Of a stretch of 20,423 bases of DNA, positions 13,065 to 20,226 are shown piece by piece. Every line of letters begins with the position of its first letter. The first letter of the stretch is position 1. Below the pieces are notes generated by a model, which did not search any database, was not told the origin of the DNA, and worked only from the letters and a program-made list of their open reading frames with translations. Source of the DNA: a virus. The stretch lies in IMG/VR virus record IMGVR_UViG_3300048018_000081, positions 1-20,423 of that record; one strand, 5' to 3'. Made by a program: the position numbers and the translations under genes.

Positions 13065-13104
13065 TCAAAATCCGTTAACAACGTCTTAATTATCCTCACT
13101 TTTT

Positions 13105-13113
13105 GATAAATAA
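13105..13113 (+). promoter_or_regulatory. late promoter (GATAAATAA)
   Basis: GATAAATAA differs from the other copies only in its last base. The predicted start near 13118 precedes a stem-loop at 13119-13136 and is about 80 bases before the 96-residue gene. Confidence 0.65.
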
Positions 13114-13118
13114 GTGTG

Positions 13119-13136
13119 TAGGGTTATGAAACCCTA
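13119..13136 (+). promoter_or_regulatory. 5'-terminal stem-loop in the leader of the 96-residue gene
   Basis: TAGGGTT (13119-13125) pairs with AACCCTA (13130-13136) around a four-base loop. It begins one base after the predicted late start. A second short hairpin, GAGAT/ATCTC with loop ACT (13151-13163), follows in the same leader. Such leaders can protect mRNA from decay. Confidence 0.65.
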
Positions 13137-13199
13137 ACAGTAAAGACTACGAGATACTATCTCAAAGTTTAAATTAACATTCTTTTAAGGAGAAATAAA

Positions 13200-13490
13200 A
13201 TGGCTTCAAATACACTAGGTGGACAATCAAACGGTCTAGGTTCAAAAACTACAATCGTTAAATTAGCACTAACAAACATGACAGCGGCTAACTTAGGCAC
13301 TATCTATGCGGCAATGGGCGCATTAGGTCACACAGTTGCTGGTTCAGGTACAGCAGACGGTTCAGCATTCGTGGCTGGTACAACTGACGTATTATTCATC
13401 GCTCTTCAAGGCGCTGACTATACAGCAGATGCTTCAGACGCCCACGGCGTAACTGGTGCGGTTACTACTATCGAAGCAGTAATTGGCTAA
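13200..13490 (+). CDS. small hydrophobic virion-type protein
   Basis: This is a 96-residue protein rich in Ala, Gly, Thr and Val with no cysteine, reading like a small beta-rich decoration or head/tail protein (TTIVKLALTNMTAANLGTIYAAMGALG...). It has a strong SD, TAAGGAG (13186-13192), spaced seven bases from the ATG, and a leader with two hairpins. It has its own late promoter and its own terminator. That arrangement suggests a stand-alone, highly expressed structural gene. I cannot name the family. Confidence 0.8.
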   Translation: MASNTLGGQSNGLGSKTTIVKLALTNMTAANLGTIYAAMGALGHTVAGSGTADGSAFVAGTTDVLFIALQGADYTADASDAHGVTGAVTTIEAVIG

Positions 13491-13512
13491 TACCTAAACT
13501 TTTAATTAAGTG

Positions 13513-13541
13513 AAAAAGCCCTCTTTATGAGGGCTTTTTTT
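13513..13541 (+). terminator. rho-independent terminator
   Basis: Eleven-bp stem AAAAAGCCCTC (13513-13523) with GAGGGCTTTTT (13529-13539), a five-base loop and a T run to 13541. It separates the 96-residue gene from the giant fibre unit. Confidence 0.93.
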
Positions 13542-13571
13542 ATGTCTAAAGTTATCGTTTTTAGTATTTTG

Positions 13572-13580
13572 TATAAATAC
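13572..13580 (+). promoter_or_regulatory. late promoter (TATAAATAC), giant fibre gene
   Basis: This is the only copy that matches the T4 late consensus TATAAATA exactly. The predicted start near 13585 is the first base of a perfect 7-bp stem-loop. Confidence 0.8.
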
Positions 13581-13584
13581 ATTT

Positions 13585-13604
13585 GTAAGAGATTCAACTC
13601 TTAC
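13585..13604 (+). promoter_or_regulatory. 5'-terminal stem-loop of the fibre leader
   Basis: GTAAGAG (13585-13591) and CTCTTAC (13598-13604) form a perfect stem around the loop ATTCAA. It begins exactly at the predicted late transcription start. Confidence 0.75.
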
Positions 13605-13605
13605 A

Positions 13606-13682
13606 GATGGTTGAGATATCTTCCGACCAATCAGATGCATGAGACTTTTCCGTGCAGTCCATTGAGAATCCTTCCGATGGAT
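13606..13682 (+). ncRNA. three tandem conserved hairpins in the 5' leader of the fibre gene
   Basis: Three hairpins lie in a row. Hairpin 1 (about 13606-13632) has stem TGGT/ACCA. Hairpin 2 (about 13634-13659) has stem TGCA/TGCA. Hairpin 3 (about 13658-13681) has stem TCCAT/ATGGA. All three have TGAGA just inside the 5' arm and TTCCG just inside the 3' arm, with only three to four variable bases between (TATC, CTT, ATCC). The boxes can pair as U-G, G-C, A.C mismatch, G-U and A-U. In hairpins 1 and 2 a GA precedes the stem and TC follows it after one extra base. The outer stems differ but still pair, which indicates a conserved RNA structure. A weaker relative (TGGAA/GTCCG) may lie at 13723-13742. 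Function is unknown; translational control, protein binding or mRNA stability are possible. Confidence 0.7.
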
Positions 13683-13755
13683 AAAAAATAAAAATAAGTA
13701 AAATAAACGTTATGTATATTATTTCATGGAATGGTCCGTGGAGTAATTAATAACA

Positions 13756-13776
13756 ATGGCTAATTATAGGAGATAA
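13756..13776 (+). other. micro-ORF MANYRR overlapping the fibre gene's ribosome binding site
   Basis: ATG at 13756 opens six codons and a TAA at 13774-13776, two bases before the fibre ATG (13779). Its Arg codons contain the AGGAG (13768-13772) used by the fibre gene. GGAG at 13740-13743 is 12 bases upstream of the micro-ORF, so its own initiation would be weak. Confidence 0.3.
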
Positions 13777-13778
13777 TA

Positions 13779-16700
13779 ATGGCTGATATTAAAAACTTTG
13801 GTATCCGTGGTATAGGTGCTGATGTTCAGTTCGGTAAGTCGGGCGGTCGTGTTGTATATGATTCAGGTAATTCCCTGTTCAAAGTAACAACTGATGGTTC
13901 TACTCTAGGTAACATGAATGTCGCAACTCCAACTGCGAATGACCATGCGGCAAACAAGAGTTATGTTGACTCAGTTGCTTCTGGACTTGATGTTAAACAA
14001 TCAGTTCGTGCGGCTTCAACAGCAGACGTAACTCTAAGTGGACCGGGTGCAACAATTGATGGCGTAACTATGTCATCAGGTGACCGTGTTCTACTAAAAA
14101 ACCAGTCGGCAGCGGCTGAAAACGGTATCTACGTATTCAACGGCAGTGCGTCAGCAATGACACGTGCTACTGATATGGACGGTGCCGCTGAATTTGTTGG
14201 TTCTTTTTTCTTTGTTGAAGAAGGTACAATAAACTCAGACCAAGGCTTTGTATGTTCAACTAACGGTACAATTACTGTTGACACAACTGCAATCGCCTTT
14301 ACACAGTTCACAGGTACTGGTCAGTTAACAGCAGGTAATGGTTTATCTAAATCAGGTAACACATTTAATGCTAACGTTGACGATACATTTGTGCAAATTA
14401 ATGGTTCAGATGAACTAACTTTAAAAGGTACTTCGACTACTGGTCAAGCACTTCTTTCAGACGGTTCAAATGGTGTAACATATGGTGCAGTTAACTTGAC
14501 TTCTTCAAGTGCAGTTACTGGCGCTTTACCATTAGCAAACGGCGGTTTAGGTGTTGATGCATCTGATTCATCAGGCAAAACTACAGCACGTTCAAACTTA
14601 GGTTTGGGCTCAATGGCTACTCAGAACTCTGGTTCTGTTGCTATTACAGGTGGTTCAATTGATATTTCTGGTGGTACATTAACTCTAGCAGACGACCAAC
14701 TATCTGGTAACGTAATTTCTGGTGGTACAATTGACTCAGCGAACCTTTCAGGTGGCGCAGGCAAGACTATCTCTGGTTTCGATGTAACAATCGCGGCTGG
14801 TAAAACATTAGACGTTGACGGTGCAGTAGATATCGATGCTTCAAGTGGTAACATGGATGGCGTTGCTATCGGTGGTACAACTTCAGCGGCTGGTACATTT
14901 ACAACTATGGCTTCTGACTCAGTAGATATTAATGGTGGTGCTATTGATGGCGCAACTATTGGTGCTAACGTGGCAGCGGCAGGTACATTTACAAACGTAG
15001 ATGCTACTGGTACAATCAAAACAAACACACTAGACAACTACTCTGGTACAAACATTGCAGTTTCGGCTCCAATGGATATTACTGGTGATGTTGGTGTAAC
15101 TGGTTCAGTCACGGCAACAGTAGCAATGGTTACTGATACAATTAGTGAAAGAACTGGTAATGCTGGTGTAACTGTTGATGGTGTTGTAATGAAAGACGGC
15201 GTTGTAACTGGCGATTTAACTGGTGATGTAACTGGTGATGTAACTGGTAACTTAACAGGTAACTCTGCTGGTGTTCACACTGGTAATGTAACTGGTAATG
15301 TAACTGGTGATTTAACTGGTAACGTTGCAGGTAACGTAACTTCAACTGGAACTTCAACGTTTGCAACAGTTGACGTTAATGGCGGTGCAGTAGACGGAAC
15401 AGTAATTGGTGCTAACACATCAGCGGCTGGTACTTTCTCAACAATGACTTCAGCATCTGTGGCTATCACTGGCGGTACTATTTCAGGAACTGCTATTGAC
15501 TTGTCAGGACAAACTTTGACATTGACTGCGGATTCAGTATCTGGTGATTCAGTTCACGGCGGAACAATTTCTAACTTCGCTTCAACTGGTATTGATGATA
15601 ACGCAACATCAACAGCATTGACAATCGATTCAAGTCAAAATGCTACATTTGGTTCAGACCTAACAGTTACTGGTGACTTAACAGTTAACGGTTCTGTAAC
15701 ATCAATCTCTTCAACTAACACTACTATCGAAGACAACAACATTGTTTTAAACAATGGTGAGTCTGGTGCTGGTGTAACTGAAGGTTCAGCAGGTATTACT
15801 ATCGACCGTGGTACAGCGGATGATGCACTTATCAACTGGAATGAGACAACAGATGAGTTCGAACTAAAAGTTGGTGCTTCATATGGTGACTTAAAAGTTT
15901 CAACACTTACAGGTGACCTAACTGGTGCAGTAACTGGTAACGTAACTGGTAACTTAACTGGTAACGTAACAGGTGATGTAACTGGTGATTTAACTGGTGA
16001 CTCTGCTGGTACACATACTGGTGCAGTTGTTGGTAACGTAACAGGTAACGTAACTGGTAATTTAACTGGTGACGTAACAGGTGATGTAACTGGTGATGTA
16101 ACTGGTGACTTAACTGGTGACTCTGCGGGTACTCATACTGGTGCAGTTGTTGGTAATGTAACTGGTAACTTAACAGGTAACGTAACAGGTAATGTTTCTG
16201 GCAATGCTGGAACAGTAACTAACGGTGTTTATACAACTGACACTGGAACAGTAACTAACACAATGTTAGCAGGTTCAATTGGTAATGCTAAATTATCAAA
16301 TAGTTCATTTACTGTTGGTTCAACTGCGATTAACCTTGGTGATACAGCGGCAAGTCTTGCAGGCTTGACTACTGTAACATCTGCGTCATTCGTAGGTGAT
16401 TTAACTGGTGACGTAACTGGTGATACTGCTGGTACTCATACTGGTGCAGTAACTGGTAACGTAACTGGTAACATTACTTCATCAGGTACAAGTACATTTA
16501 CAGACGTTGACGTTAACGGCGGTGTTATTGATGGAACAACTATTGGTGCAACATCATCAGCGGCTGGTACATTCTCAACATTAGCATCTGCTTCAGCGAC
16601 ATTAACTGGTGGTACTGCTACTGGCATGACAACAGTTACAGCGACTAACCTAAACTCAGGTAATGTTGGTATTACTGGTGGTTCTATTTCAGGAACATCA

Positions 16701-18608
16701 ATCGACTTATCAGGTCAAACCCTAACACTAGGTGCTGACTCAGTTTCAGGTGACTCAATCCACGGTGGTACTATTTCTAACGCTTCATTGGCCGGTGACG
16801 CTACCGACACAATGACTGGTTATGATATTACTGTTGGTGCAGGACGTACATTAGATGTATCTTCAGGTACTCTAACACTAGGTACTAACCAGATTTCTGG
16901 TGATAAAGTACATGGTGGCGTTATTTCTGCTTTTGAATCAACTGGTATGGATGATAATGCAACTTCTACGAAGTTAACATTGTCAGACACTACTGCAACA
17001 TTTGGTGTTGCTGGTGACTTCGGTTCCAACGACCTAGATGCAGGTGATACAACACTTGGTTCATTGTCTGTAACAGGTAATGCTTCAATTACTGGTAACT
17101 TGACAGTTTCTGGTTCAGTAACTACAACTTTATCTGAGATTGTAAATATCGAAGATAATAACATTGTTCTTAACTCAAACGCAACTGGTTCGGCTACTGC
17201 TGATGCTGGTATTACGATTGAGCGTGGTGATGATGATAATGCTGTTGTTCTTTGGAACGAAACTTCAAATGCATTCGAACTTACTGTAGGCGCGGCTAAG
17301 GCTGACCTAACAGTTAATGATTTGACTGTAAATGAAATGACACTAGCAACTGACCTTGCGGCAAGCATGGGTGGTACGGGTACTGATACTTCAGCATTCG
17401 CGGCTTCATCTATCATGTTAAACAGTGGTTCAGGTACAGTAACAGAGATGGCAAAAGGTGCTAACTCAACTGTTCTTAAAGTTGGTGCAGGCGGTACTCT
17501 AGGTTATGCAAAAGTCGATTTGACTGCTGACGTAACTGGTACAATGCCAATAGCAAACGGTGGTACAGGTATCACTTCAGCAGGTTCTGATAATAAAGTT
17601 ATGACTTCAGACGGTTCTGCATTAGGTATGGAATATGTACAACATGTACGTAATTCAACTGGTGTAGTTGCGTTAGACGGTTCTGGCGTTACTTCAGGTT
17701 CTGGTGAATATATCGCAATTACTAACGGTACTGGCAAAGTAACACTAACAGCCAAAAATGCGGCGGCATCTGGTGCTGTAGATATGTATCTACAAGGCCA
17801 AGGTGGCGGTGACGTATTTATTGTTGGTCAATCTGGCGAAGCCTTAATTCAAGGTGAAGACGATACAGACCTAACAGTATCTGGCGGTGATGCTTCTGGC
17901 GGTGATGCTGGTGACTTAATCATCAAAGGTGGTAACGGTACAGGCGGTAACGCCTCTGGTGCGGTTGTCATTAAAGGTGGTAACGGTGGTTCAGCAGACG
18001 GAAACGTTCAAATTAAAGGTGCAGATGATACAGCAATCGCTACTTTCGTAGAGACTGCTTCAGCAACTGACTCTTTAACAGTAACTAACGGAACTGGCGG
18101 TGTAGAACTAGCAATGGCTGGTGGTACAAACGTCAACATGACATTAGCACCAAAAGGTAATGGTATTATACTTGCACCAAATGGCTATGACATGTCTTCA
18201 GCGGCTGATGCGGCTCTAGCAACTAAAGAATATGTAGATGACAAAGCGTCAACTTCAGGTTCTTCTGGTACTAGACGTGTGGCATTCTCTGCTAACGGTT
18301 CTTCATCATTCACAATCGGCACAATGGCTAACGTTGCAGGCAAGTCTTACTATGTAAAACGTGTTACTGCTAAAGTTACTGCCGCGTTTGTTGGTGCTGA
18401 TGAGTTAGTTGTTTCTGACGGTACAAATACTCTAATGGCAACAAGTGATGCTGACCTTTCTGAAGGCGGCTTATACATTGTTGACTTAGGTTTTGAAGAT
18501 GCAACAACAGGTGGTGCAACTATTACTGGTACAATCCAGAATGGCGGCGCATCTGCTTCACCAACAACTGGTGCAGTGATTGTTACAGTAGAGTACAAGC
18601 AAATCTAA
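13779..18608 (+). CDS. giant repetitive tail-fibre-like structural protein
   Basis: This is a 1609-residue protein, low in charge and rich in Gly, Thr, Ser, Ala and Asp, with almost no cysteine. The N-terminus has NDHAANKSYVDSVASGLDVK (54-73), a fibre motif repeated in part near the end as ATKEYVDD (1481-1488). The middle has tetrapeptide arrays (V/L-T-G-N/D) and two copies of a module with IEDNNIVLN (650-658 and 1124-1132) followed by ITIDRG/ITIERG and WNET. SGTAIDLSGQTLTL- and VHGGTIS-type segments also recur. Such beta-rich modular repeats are typical of phage fibres that bind the host surface. AGGAG is spaced six bases from the ATG. Codon use looks more GC-rich than its neighbours, possibly for high expression. 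Whether it is a long or a short fibre cannot be told. Confidence 0.85.
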   Translation: MADIKNFGIRGIGADVQFGKSGGRVVYDSGNSLFKVTTDGSTLGNMNVATPTANDHAANKSYVDSVASGLDVKQSVRAASTADVTLSGPGATIDGVTMSSGDRVLLKNQSAAAENGIYVFNGSASAMTRATDMDGAAEFVGSFFFVEEGTINSDQGFVCSTNGTITVDTTAIAFTQFTGTGQLTAGNGLSKSGNTFNANVDDTFVQINGSDELTLKGTSTTGQALLSDGSNGVTYGAVNLTSSSAVTGALPLANGGLGVDASDSSGKTTARSNLGLGSMATQNSGSVAITGGSIDISGGTLTLADDQLSGNVISGGTIDSANLSGGAGKTISGFDVTIAAGKTLDVDGAVDIDASSGNMDGVAIGGTTSAAGTFTTMASDSVDINGGAIDGATIGANVAAAGTFTNVDATGTIKTNTLDNYSGTNIAVSAPMDITGDVGVTGSVTATVAMVTDTISERTGNAGVTVDGVVMKDGVVTGDLTGDVTGDVTGNLTGNSAGVHTGNVTGNVTGDLTGNVAGNVTSTGTSTFATVDVNGGAVDGTVIGANTSAAGTFSTMTSASVAITGGTISGTAIDLSGQTLTLTADSVSGDSVHGGTISNFASTGIDDNATSTALTIDSSQNATFGSDLTVTGDLTVNGSVTSISSTNTTIEDNNIVLNNGESGAGVTEGSAGITIDRGTADDALINWNETTDEFELKVGASYGDLKVSTLTGDLTGAVTGNVTGNLTGNVTGDVTGDLTGDSAGTHTGAVVGNVTGNVTGNLTGDVTGDVTGDVTGDLTGDSAGTHTGAVVGNVTGNLTGNVTGNVSGNAGTVTNGVYTTDTGTVTNTMLAGSIGNAKLSNSSFTVGSTAINLGDTAASLAGLTTVTSASFVGDLTGDVTGDTAGTHTGAVTGNVTGNITSSGTSTFTDVDVNGGVIDGTTIGATSSAAGTFSTLASASATLTGGTATGMTTVTATNLNSGNVGITGGSISGTSIDLSGQTLTLGADSVSGDSIHGGTISNASLAGDATDTMTGYDITVGAGRTLDVSSGTLTLGTNQISGDKVHGGVISAFESTGMDDNATSTKLTLSDTTATFGVAGDFGSNDLDAGDTTLGSLSVTGNASITGNLTVSGSVTTTLSEIVNIEDNNIVLNSNATGSATADAGITIERGDDDNAVVLWNETSNAFELTVGAAKADLTVNDLTVNEMTLATDLAASMGGTGTDTSAFAASSIMLNSGSGTVTEMAKGANSTVLKVGAGGTLGYAKVDLTADVTGTMPIANGGTGITSAGSDNKVMTSDGSALGMEYVQHVRNSTGVVALDGSGVTSGSGEYIAITNGTGKVTLTAKNAAASGAVDMYLQGQGGGDVFIVGQSGEALIQGEDDTDLTVSGGDASGGDAGDLIIKGGNGTGGNASGAVVIKGGNGGSADGNVQIKGADDTAIATFVETASATDSLTVTNGTGGVELAMAGGTNVNMTLAPKGNGIILAPNGYDMSSAADAALATKEYVDDKASTSGSSGTRRVAFSANGSSSFTIGTMANVAGKSYYVKRVTAKVTAAFVGADELVVSDGTNTLMATSDADLSEGGLYIVDLGFEDATTGGATITGTIQNGGASASPTTGAVIVTVEYKQI
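15204..15335 (+). repeat. fibre tetrapeptide repeat array 1
   Basis: Eleven consecutive 12-base units encode four-residue blocks such as VTGD, LTGN and HTGN, with no interruption of the 4-residue register. Confidence 0.85.
15906..16205 (+). repeat. fibre tetrapeptide repeat array 2
   Basis: Twenty-five consecutive 12-base units (exactly 300 bases) encode VTGN/LTGD-type tetrads. Within it the 20-residue stretch beginning LTGDSAGTHTGAVVGN occurs twice, with near-identical DNA. Confidence 0.9.
16401..16472 (+). repeat. fibre tetrapeptide repeat array 3
   Basis: Six further 12-base units (LTGD, VTGD, TAGT, HTGA, VTGN, VTGN) keep the same register and are followed by ITSSGTSTF, as array 1 is followed by VTSTGTSTF. 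Confidence 0.75.
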
Positions 18609-18630
18609 TTTGTGAGTAATTTATAATAAC

Positions 18631-18649
18631 TATCACCATCATAGTGATA
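18631..18649 (+). repeat. short inverted repeat before the terminator
   Basis: TATCAC (18631-18636) and GTGATA (18644-18649) flank a seven-base loop just upstream of the terminator stem, so the end of the fibre transcript has two hairpins. Confidence 0.5.
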
Positions 18650-18653
18650 ATAG

Positions 18654-18682
18654 AAAGGGGGACTTAGTGTTCCCCTTTTTTT
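18654..18682 (+). terminator. rho-independent terminator
   Basis: AAAGGGGGAC (18654-18663) pairs with GTTCCCCTTT (18669-18678), with one G-U pair, around a five-base loop. T run to 18682. It ends the giant fibre transcript. Confidence 0.88.
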
Positions 18683-18723
18683 GTCTATAGCCAAAGTGTT
18701 ACTAGAGTAATATTAGTATATTT

Positions 18724-18732
18724 GATAAATAC
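18724..18732 (+). promoter_or_regulatory. late promoter (GATAAATAC)
   Basis: GATAAATAC lies 77 bases before the 283-residue fibre gene. The predicted start is near 18737. Its leader has no obvious 5' stem-loop, unlike the 13105 and 13572 units. Confidence 0.75.
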
Positions 18733-18808
18733 TTACAGAACTAAAATCTTTAACGACAGACTTAATTTATTAGGGCTGACATGAAATAACCGACGTTGAG
18801 GAACGAAA

Positions 18809-19660
18809 ATGGCTGTAACAATTAACGCAAAAGGGACCAGTGTCCCTTACTTTAAAATTGGAAAATCTGGAACCACCTTCTATCAAGGAGATGCAGACCC
18901 GAGTAGTACATACACAATAAACACAAATGACATTTGGTTTGATACCACAAATGGCACTGTAAAGTTTCGCACATCAAACTCTTGGTCAGGCATCACAACT
19001 GCTTCTGACTTAACTGTAACTGGCGACTTAACAGTTCAAGGTACAACTACTACAGTAAACTCAACAGAGATACAAGTTCAAAATACTTTAAAGTTTGAAG
19101 GCGCAACTTCAAATGAATACGAAACAACTCTAACAGTTGTTGACCCAACACAAGATAATGTAATCACAATACCAAATGCAACAGACACTTTAGTTGGTCT
19201 TGCAACAACAAACACGTTAACTAATAAATCAATTGATTTAGATTCTAATACACTTTCAGGCACACTAACAGAATTTAATACTGCTATGCAAGGTGATAGT
19301 TTTGTTTCTTTAACAGGTGCTGAAACACTTACAAATAAAACTTTAACTAGTCCTGTACTAAACGGAACACAGATGACACCAACTGGTGCTATCGTTATGC
19401 CAGTTGGCACAACAGCACAAAGACCAGGAACAGGTGTTGTTGGTATGATGCGTTTTAATTCTGACATAGATGCTTTTGAAGGTTACAATGGTGCATCTTG
19501 GGTTAAACTTGGTGGCTTGACTCCATCAAATGATTCCAGAGACAACGGATTAATTACTGATAGTGAAGTATTTAATGCAGATTACGGTTCTATTACTGAC
19601 ACTGATACAGCATCATATACTTTAGATAGAGGTCTTATAAGTGATAGTGATACAGTTTAA
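18809..19660 (+). CDS. tail-fibre-like structural protein
   Basis: This 283-residue protein is related in style to the giant fibre. It has DLTVTGDLTVQGTTTTVNS (67-85), where the giant has DLTVTGDLTVNGSVTS. Typical phage-fibre segments are LTNKTLTSPVLNGT (174-187) and GMMRFNSDIDAFEGYNGASWVKLGG (212-236), the latter resembling the trimeric C-terminal folding region of many marine fibre proteins. The last about 40 residues are acidic and repetitive (GLITDSEVF, YGSITDTDTA, GLISDSDTV). GAGGA is spaced six bases from the ATG. A role as a host-binding fibre, collar or whisker component is inferred from sequence style and the late promoter. Confidence 0.85.
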   Translation: MAVTINAKGTSVPYFKIGKSGTTFYQGDADPSSTYTINTNDIWFDTTNGTVKFRTSNSWSGITTASDLTVTGDLTVQGTTTTVNSTEIQVQNTLKFEGATSNEYETTLTVVDPTQDNVITIPNATDTLVGLATTNTLTNKSIDLDSNTLSGTLTEFNTAMQGDSFVSLTGAETLTNKTLTSPVLNGTQMTPTGAIVMPVGTTAQRPGTGVVGMMRFNSDIDAFEGYNGASWVKLGGLTPSNDSRDNGLITDSEVFNADYGSITDTDTASYTLDRGLISDSDTV

Positions 19661-19676
19661 TTATACTGTAAATTTA

Positions 19677-19685
19677 GATAAATAC
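19677..19685 (+). promoter_or_regulatory. late promoter (GATAAATAC)
   Basis: GATAAATAC lies 17 bases after the preceding stop codon and 27 bases before the next ATG. No terminator separates the two genes, so read-through is also likely. Confidence 0.75.
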
Positions 19686-19711
19686 TATTAACAAGAGTTC
19701 GGAGAAATAAA

Positions 19712-20101
19712 ATGGCAAGAACAAACGGAGCCGCATCGGCAAGTGAAGTAGTATCAGGTAACATTAACTTCTATACAATGTATGTATCGGGATTAGATAT
19801 TACACACACTGGTGATATATTAGACCAGTCACAACAAAATTTAGATGATATTGTTAATATCGTATCATTGGTAGCACAACCTGTTATTATGAATAATCCA
19901 TTATCAGTCACGTTAGGCGGACTAGCACCAACACTGACAGGTTCAGGATTTGTTTTTAAATTTGCAGTAGAACATGCAGACGTTTTTAAACGAAACTCTG
20001 ATGATGTTTTCATTCTAAAAGAATTAATTCACGGCATAACAATTGATGGTGTTGCATTATCGGCATCAAATATAGAATTTGTAATGTCTGATATACTTTA
20101 A
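19712..20101 (+). CDS. small late structural-type protein of unknown function
   Basis: This 129-residue protein has GGAG (19701-19704) spaced seven bases before the ATG. The sequence is mixed (NFYTMYVSGLDITHTGDILDQ, then QQNLDDIVNIVSLVAQPVIMNN) with a moderately hydrophobic second half (LSVTLGGLAPTLTGSGFVFKF). It has its own late promoter and is closed by a terminator at 20128-20153. A virion or assembly role is plausible from position beside the fibre genes, but no family was recognised. Confidence 0.78.
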   Translation: MARTNGAASASEVVSGNINFYTMYVSGLDITHTGDILDQSQQNLDDIVNIVSLVAQPVIMNNPLSVTLGGLAPTLTGSGFVFKFAVEHADVFKRNSDDVFILKELIHGITIDGVALSASNIEFVMSDIL

Positions 20102-20127
20102 ACTAATTATTCCTAATTAATTTTAAT

Positions 20128-20153
20128 AAAAGAGGACATAGTCCTCTTTTTTT
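20128..20153 (+). terminator. rho-independent terminator
   Basis: Ten-bp perfect stem AAAAGAGGAC (20128-20137) with GTCCTCTTTT (20141-20150), triloop ATA, and a T run to 20153. Confidence 0.93.
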
Positions 20154-20185
20154 GTTGTGGTTGGACATAATTTCTGGCACCAAAT

Positions 20186-20194
20186 GATAAATAC
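20186..20194 (+). promoter_or_regulatory. late promoter (GATAAATAC)
   Basis: GATAAATAC follows the terminator and precedes the partial gene at 20227 by 32 bases. The predicted start is near 20199. Confidence 0.75.
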
Positions 20195-20226
20195 AATTAA
20201 TGAATATTAATTAGGGAGTTGCGAAG

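Follow-up and report, generated by a model that had tools for sequence, protein, structure and literature searches.

The leader of a very large fibre-like gene, at positions 13580-13778 of the window (the whole stretch of DNA analyzed here, a virus record of 20,423 bases), carries three tandem hairpins that are conserved in a group of uncultured marine giant phages as sense-strand RNA. As a sequence-only reading of the window had proposed, these hairpins stand behind a late-promoter-like box and ahead of the fibre start codon; they occur in three copies or in one depending on the lineage, and are associated with the fibre gene. The existence of this boxed-hairpin element is well supported. It has the appearance of a new element of RNA-level control and may serve as a docking site for a protein. 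Our preferred account, held tentatively and at somewhat less than even odds, is that the leader is a cis-acting structured 5′ UTR in which a shielding hairpin and protein-docking hairpins control the fibre mRNA. Such an account would entail a protein partner and an effect on mRNA stability or translation.

The Fibre Gene and Its Setting

Judged from its genes, the window is part of a giant tailed phage. A phage DNA helicase gene was recognized by a PHROG match, and a DnaB-type helicase has the giant phages PA5oct, Atu_ph07, and SCTP-2 among its best relatives (best 20 of 3282 records); both are among the genes behind the assignment. A DNA similarity search with positions 13200-13790 against isolated phages gave no match. 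The gene of interest is an open reading frame on the plus strand (13779-18608) for a repetitive, fibre-like structural protein of 1609 aa, with PHROG matches to head decoration (residues 46-233), baseplate hub/tail lysozyme, and tail fibre families. Its start codon at 13779 is preceded by a Shine-Dalgarno sequence, AGGAG (13768-13772), which is predicted to be unpaired at a level of at least 92%, and the array of boxed hairpins ends at 13681.

Terminator-like hairpins lie on either side of leader and gene. On the upstream side, an 11-bp perfect inverted repeat on the plus strand (AAAAAGCCCTC/GAGGGCTTTTT, 13513-13539) runs into T and would close the preceding unit; it is absent from the output of a separate terminator scan. 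Downstream, a hairpin scan placed an 11-pair stem followed by a T-run at 18650-18684 (plus strand), so that leader and fibre gene may form one transcription unit. The genes flanking the fibre block adjoin each other directly, without the block, in 10 of the 20 relatives with genes listed (for example, loci L014, L015, L023, and L025), so that leader and fibre gene are gained or lost jointly. The block itself (window 13100-20200) has the look of an accessory block, made up of a small gene, the fibre gene, and the tail genes that follow.

Promoter-Like Box and Leader Layout

A T4-type late-promoter-like octamer, TATAAATA, is found at 13572-13579 on the plus strand; it is the sole copy in the window, where 2.25 would be expected, and is thus not above chance when taken alone. 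Such a box upstream of a structural gene is a feature of T4-type late units, and one of the octamers NATAAATA, NCTAAATA, or GGTAAATA is present in 58 of 58 distinct fibre leaders, in a script that searched specifically for the octamer. We infer a promoter at 13572-13579 and an mRNA start close behind it.

Directly behind the octamer begin the repeat arms of a 5′-terminal hairpin (13580-13609, plus strand; core TGTAAGAG/CTCTTACA), recognized both by RNA folding and as an inverted repeat; in most relatives the arms begin 3-5 nt behind the octamer, and the cores there read TGTAAGTG/CACTTACG, TGTAAGTC/GACTTGCG, or TGTAAGAT/ATCTTACA. A Watson-Crick stem of at least 6 pairs that starts within 12 nt occurs in 40 of these 58 leaders; when the leaders were shuffled 50 times, the count averaged 6.4 and never exceeded 11. 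With our own stem finder, a hairpin was found within the first 60 nt in 56 of 58 distinct leaders of fibres with the same N-terminus. Structured leaders are therefore widespread among fibre genes of this family, the boxed array being the form that one lineage has.

For the RNA of positions 13578-13690 the predicted folding energy is -36.8 kcal/mol, a z-score of -5.1 that none of 200 shuffles matched, and the fold consists of the three boxed hairpins and the stronger 5′ hairpin, the latter unnamed in the sequence-only reading. Behind the third boxed hairpin comes an A-rich linker, and between array and ribosome-binding site the window fold places a long A+U-rich hairpin (13718-13747, plus strand). 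A comparable A+U-rich hairpin of different sequence was seen in 18 of 25 distinct leaders, a by-eye reading without shuffle control.

A mini-ORF of six codons (Met-Ala-Asn-Tyr-Arg-Arg-stop) lies at window positions 13756-13776, overlapping the fibre Shine-Dalgarno sequence, and is retained in the three-copy leaders inspected, with Ile or Tyr sometimes the third residue. As a functional part of the leader it was dropped, being without counterpart in most one-copy relatives on a by-eye reading.

The Three Boxed Hairpins

The three boxed hairpins, each identified by sequence pattern, fold, covariation, and model match, lie on the plus strand at 13608-13629 (TGGT-TGAGA-TATC-TTCCG-ACCA), 13636-13656 (TGCA-TGAGA-CTT-TTCCG-TGCA), and 13658-13681 (TCCAT-TGAGA-ATCC-TTCCG-ATGGA). 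It had been noticed from the letters that TGAGA and TTCCG occur three times with 3-4 bases between them, and this holds: the pattern TGAGAN{2,5}TTCCG has three matches in the window, all on the plus strand and all within 13612-13676, against a shuffle mean of 0.09 (n = 100), with no shuffle giving three. The flanking arms TGGT/ACCA, TGCA/TGCA, and TCCAT/ATGGA had been read correctly, as had the GA before and the TC after the stem in copies 1 and 2, with one base separating the stem from the TC.

The boxes themselves had been taken for unpaired elements inside a stem, which is wrong. In each hairpin TGAGA pairs with TTCCG around a bulged A, in the order U.G, G-C, bulged A, G-C, A-U, and the boxes so form the upper part of the hairpin on a variable lower stem. 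The loops are 5 nt in copy 1, 4 nt in copy 2, and 5 nt in copy 3, and both their letters and their length differ among copies and relatives.

Conservation and Covariation

Relatives were gathered by two protein anchors, the upstream gene (best 80 of 148) and the fibre N-terminus (several scans, one of them giving the best 80 of 95). The claim that the flanks are conserved in structure rather than in sequence, which relatives lacking complementary stems would have refuted, was borne out in 17 distinct three-hairpin leaders: all four flanking pairs are present in 50 of 50 cores that had been chosen by their box letters only, not by pairing. The third core of L011 falls outside the box pattern and is paired in its own register. 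In an alignment of 15 of the 17 leaders, 25 pairs comprise 375 cells, of which 98.4% are standard pairs, and both sides have changed in 9 of the 25 pairs (29 such cells). Covariation amounted to 0.238 compared with 0.093 after shuffling (0 of 500 shuffles equal) and at most 0.047 in slid controls; the sequences are related, so that the shuffle figures overstate independence and are not probabilities. RNAalifold recovers the same helices unprompted.

When the hairpins were treated as separate units (28 distinct), covariation was 0.729 compared with 0.205 after shuffling and at most 0.117 in slid controls, and 96.9% of 224 cells were paired, a percentage that is partly by construction given that 22 units are of the three-copy type, from a script demanding pairing, and 6 are one-copy units picked by hand. 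The cores picked by box letters and the 15-leader alignment are therefore the cleaner tests of pairing.

Three-copy units vary much in their lower stems and little in their upper letters. In copy 2 of L028 the inner pair has changed from A-U to U-A, a swap that is supporting evidence for the bulged-A geometry predicted here, and copy 2 of L104 has a C in place of the bulged A. The seven unpaired cells of the 28-unit set fall at the upper G-C (five, all in one-copy units) and at the inner A-U (two, in three-copy units): the upper G-C is non-standard in 5 of the 6 one-copy units, and the inner A-U is lost in two three-copy units. For this reason the bulged-A geometry is firm solely for the three-copy group.

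By our own count, 35 of the 217 paired cells in the 28-unit set are G.U. On the opposite strand these would turn into A.C, leaving 182 of 224 cells paired, which argues that the structure is conserved as sense-strand RNA, i.e., as mRNA.

Distribution Among Phages

A hairpin model was run on the window and on 31 loci of 12 records. It gave 30 matches at E < 1, all at fibre leaders, three each in the window and in nine records; the other three records had none at E < 1. In two phage records of 342 kb there was a single match each at E < 1, again at the fibre leader. Among 80 loci that share the fibre N-terminus (the best of 95), many of which contributed sequences to the model, 30 have three hairpins, 12 have one, and 38 have none. 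Three tandem hairpins, as first described, are what the window has, with the refinement that copy number depends on the lineage (three or one). Part of the one-copy set is weak by the model: 5 of the 12 one-copy loci reach no better than E 0.11, and whole-record searches of G022 and G023, which hold such weak one-copy loci, yielded nothing at E up to 1. An extra match in L396 (E 0.3), on the opposite strand, was set aside.

Boxes that appear without paired flanks at chance frequency had been named as a result that would speak against the element. Taken alone, the boxes are indeed unspecific, since in 21 records they are about as frequent as the reversed pattern when one mismatch is tolerated, and record G021 (L193) holds one perfect box pair yet no stem worth E < 1; boxes with paired flanks are specific. 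In the records searched whole or in large part, no match at E < 0.2 stood before another gene.

Anchoring on the upstream gene gave the same association from the other side. The three-copy-type core was found in all 17 loci that had both 1300 nt of downstream sequence and a fibre hit, in 0 of 43 that had no fibre hit, and in 6 of the remaining 20, shorter loci. By these sequence counts the array is closely linked to the fibre gene.

Isolated phages that share the fibre N-terminus comprise 11 PA5oct-group records and Salicola phage SCTP-2, with two places each; in PA5oct (L358) and SCTP-2 (L359), proteins annotated as structural or hypothetical share about the first 50 fibre residues. One place was inspected in one PA5oct record and one in SCTP-2, and neither showed the array; a search of these two complete records with the hairpin model produced only weak matches (E 0.30; 0.60, 0.71, and 0.97). 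In bacterial genomes three loci were found, and in none did the match to the fibre begin at residue 1.

Relatives without the boxed array carry other leader hairpins, for example CCGAACGAA loops on three different stems. In L393, L394, L401, and L402, about 75-135 nt upstream of the fibre start, the invariant loop CCGAACGAA is followed by GAGGCAGACCCTC, and the stems read CCACC/GGTGG, CCACT/AGTGG, and GCCTTT/AAAGGC, in few sequences.

Comparison With Known RNA Elements

In line with the earlier statement that no named RNA element has these boxes, Rfam gave no match in the window at gathering score; for positions 13500-13800, at E up to 10, there were 30 weak matches, all below gathering, and the pan motif was not among them. 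The coat-protein operator of phages MS2 and R17 has a stem, a bulged A, 2 bp, and a small loop with fixed letters, and it overlaps the replicase start. All three window copies resemble it in having a bulged A and 2 bp above a stem. The operator has a 4-nt loop of fixed letters and overlaps the start codon that it controls, whereas the loops here are 4-5 nt long with variable letters, the array ends at 13681 ahead of a gene that starts at 13779, and the phage is a dsDNA phage.

The pan motif is the nearest described parallel. According to Weinberg et al. (2010; PMC2864571), it is a leader RNA with a small stem and conserved bulged As, mostly in tandem and suggested to be protein-binding; the likeness extends to the tandem small stems in a leader, the conserved bulged A, and the proposed protein site. 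On the same description the pan motif has two bulged As and belongs to bacterial pantothenate genes, whereas here there is one bulged A per hairpin, in up to three copies, before a phage fibre gene. The gene 43 translational operator of T4 and RB69 is likewise a leader hairpin on the mRNA of a T4-type phage, in that case read by a phage protein (PMC3014915); the protein reader is a proposal here. That operator is a single hairpin some 40 nt upstream, whose sequence extends to the ribosome site and whose loop is conserved, in contrast to tandem hairpins before a fibre gene in which the bulge is conserved and the loops are variable. Finally, the hairpin at 13580-13609 would resemble the 5′ stabilizing stem-loops of bacterial mRNAs (PMC3997798) in its place at the predicted 5′ end. 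The boxed array differs from these in its nearly fixed letters, which such stems do not require.

Our searches of the literature, in sources mostly short of full text, returned no description of this element and no account of late structural genes in giant phages being controlled through their leader RNA. The leader can be regarded as a candidate for a new RNA family, a structured phage leader with hairpins that resemble protein sites.

Possible Roles of the Leader

Three uses had been put forward for the hairpins, a protein-binding site, a translational switch, and an mRNA stabilizer, and by sequence alone these are inseparable. The 5′ hairpin would suit a stabilizer, and the nearly fixed bulged core would suit a protein site. 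Our preferred reading combines the two. The fibre mRNA would be transcribed from its own late promoter with the leader acting in cis, and the 5′-terminal hairpin would guard the mRNA end against 5′-end-dependent decay; that a 5′ hairpin or a bound protein stabilizes bacterial mRNAs is established (PMC3997798). The tandem hairpins would be repeated docking sites for a phage or host protein, with the lower stem merely keeping the shape and the protein reading the upper part (U.G, G-C, bulged A, G-C, A-U, and the 4-5 nt loop). A docking site is suggested because the lower stems change freely while the upper part is nearly fixed in all three copies of a leader. The lifetime or the translation of the fibre mRNA would then be tuned by how many of its one to three sites are occupied, and the outcome would be a very large structural protein produced late and in the correct amount. 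Against this reading, some 90 nt separate the array from the Shine-Dalgarno sequence downstream of it, too great a distance for simple occlusion of the ribosome. As to the reader, CsrA and RRM models had no match in four phage records, and a search for RegA found no match even in control genomes and hence has no bearing on the partner. It also counts against the preferred reading that 38 of the 80 relatives with this fibre N-terminus (best 80 of 95) are without the array.

In another reading, which we consider rather unlikely, the leader hairpins would be passive and would only keep nucleases away from the 5′ part of a late mRNA that is long and made in abundance; no specific protein would read them. 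It would fit the hairpin near the promoter-like box, which recurs throughout the clade with altered sequence, as well as the terminator-like hairpins on either side, which suggest a private transcription unit, and some further late leaders of these phages are structured too, according to a leader-wide scan that is a rough guide given its 30 shuffles per leader and crude gene finder. Under passive shielding the letters of the upper part should be free to change, but in three copies the bulged A and the pairs next to it vary little while the lower stems drift.

A more specific form of docking, which we regard as unlikely, is autogenous control tuned by copy number, in which the fibre protein itself or a dedicated partner would bind the bulged-A hairpins of its own leader and sister lineages would have substituted invariant-loop hairpins there. 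If this were true, it would add a layer of control to a late structural gene of a giant DNA phage. More generally, the element offers an RNA target that is well defined, covaries, and is present in several copies, and nature provides three-, one-, and no-copy versions before the same gene, which makes the question of a reader protein directly testable; a partner, if found, might constitute a new RNA-protein pair.

It is improbable, in our estimate, that the array is a long-range switch in which the pyrimidine-rich 3′ side of a hairpin (UAUCUUCC in copy 1) pairs with the Shine-Dalgarno sequence GGAGAUA and hides it. When Shine-Dalgarno sites were swapped among the three box-carrying groups, copy 1 of the window bound its own site at -6.9 kcal/mol compared with -4.5 for the others, L258 bound its own at -8.5 compared with -5.4 to -6.8, and L107, L108, L109, and L111 bound theirs at -9.4 to -9.6 compared with -4.6 to -5.9. 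However, these are just three independent groups, window copies 2 and 3 have no preference for their own site, and L106 prefers the site of L258. The GGGAG sites of L393 and L401, whose leaders lack the array, bind every hairpin better than its own site does. Furthermore, the Shine-Dalgarno sequence is predicted to be open, the UUCC side is already occupied within the hairpin, and copy 2 of L028 loses the UUCC side and keeps the hairpin.

Processing of the leader to a small RNA that acts elsewhere seems very improbable: it would agree with the layout of the leader, in which a compact, folded 5′ part gives way to an A-rich and largely unstructured linker, but the terminator scan found no terminator-like site after the array on the plus strand, and the tight linkage to the fibre gene also argues against it. 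Hardly credible is a role for the minus-strand transcript as a CsrA-type sponge, an antisense RNA whose loops have GGA close by. Each hairpin does read CGGAA on the minus strand, but the G.U cells would be lost as A.C, both the promoter-like box and the 5′ hairpin are oriented on the plus strand, and no CsrA was found in the four phage records, although a host CsrA would serve.

Other Leaders in These Phages

Small hairpins were also seen in the leaders of other genes. In two distant phages, near 9152 in L167 (G005) and near 16363 in L227 (G002), a gene whose product begins like a signal peptide is preceded by a leader in which two small hairpins in tandem, on differing stems, carry GAGT or GAGC at the loop, as read by eye; a script with 5-bp stems recovered the G002 pair only. 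Within the window, at 13104-13199, the leader of the small gene upstream of the fibre gene likewise contains GATAAATA; AGGGTT/AACCCT forms its 5′ hairpin, and another hairpin lies around GAGATACTATCTC. At 18723-18808, ahead of the tail gene that comes next, AACG/CGTT pairing in the leader is possible just before GAGG, with an inner part that differs among relatives.
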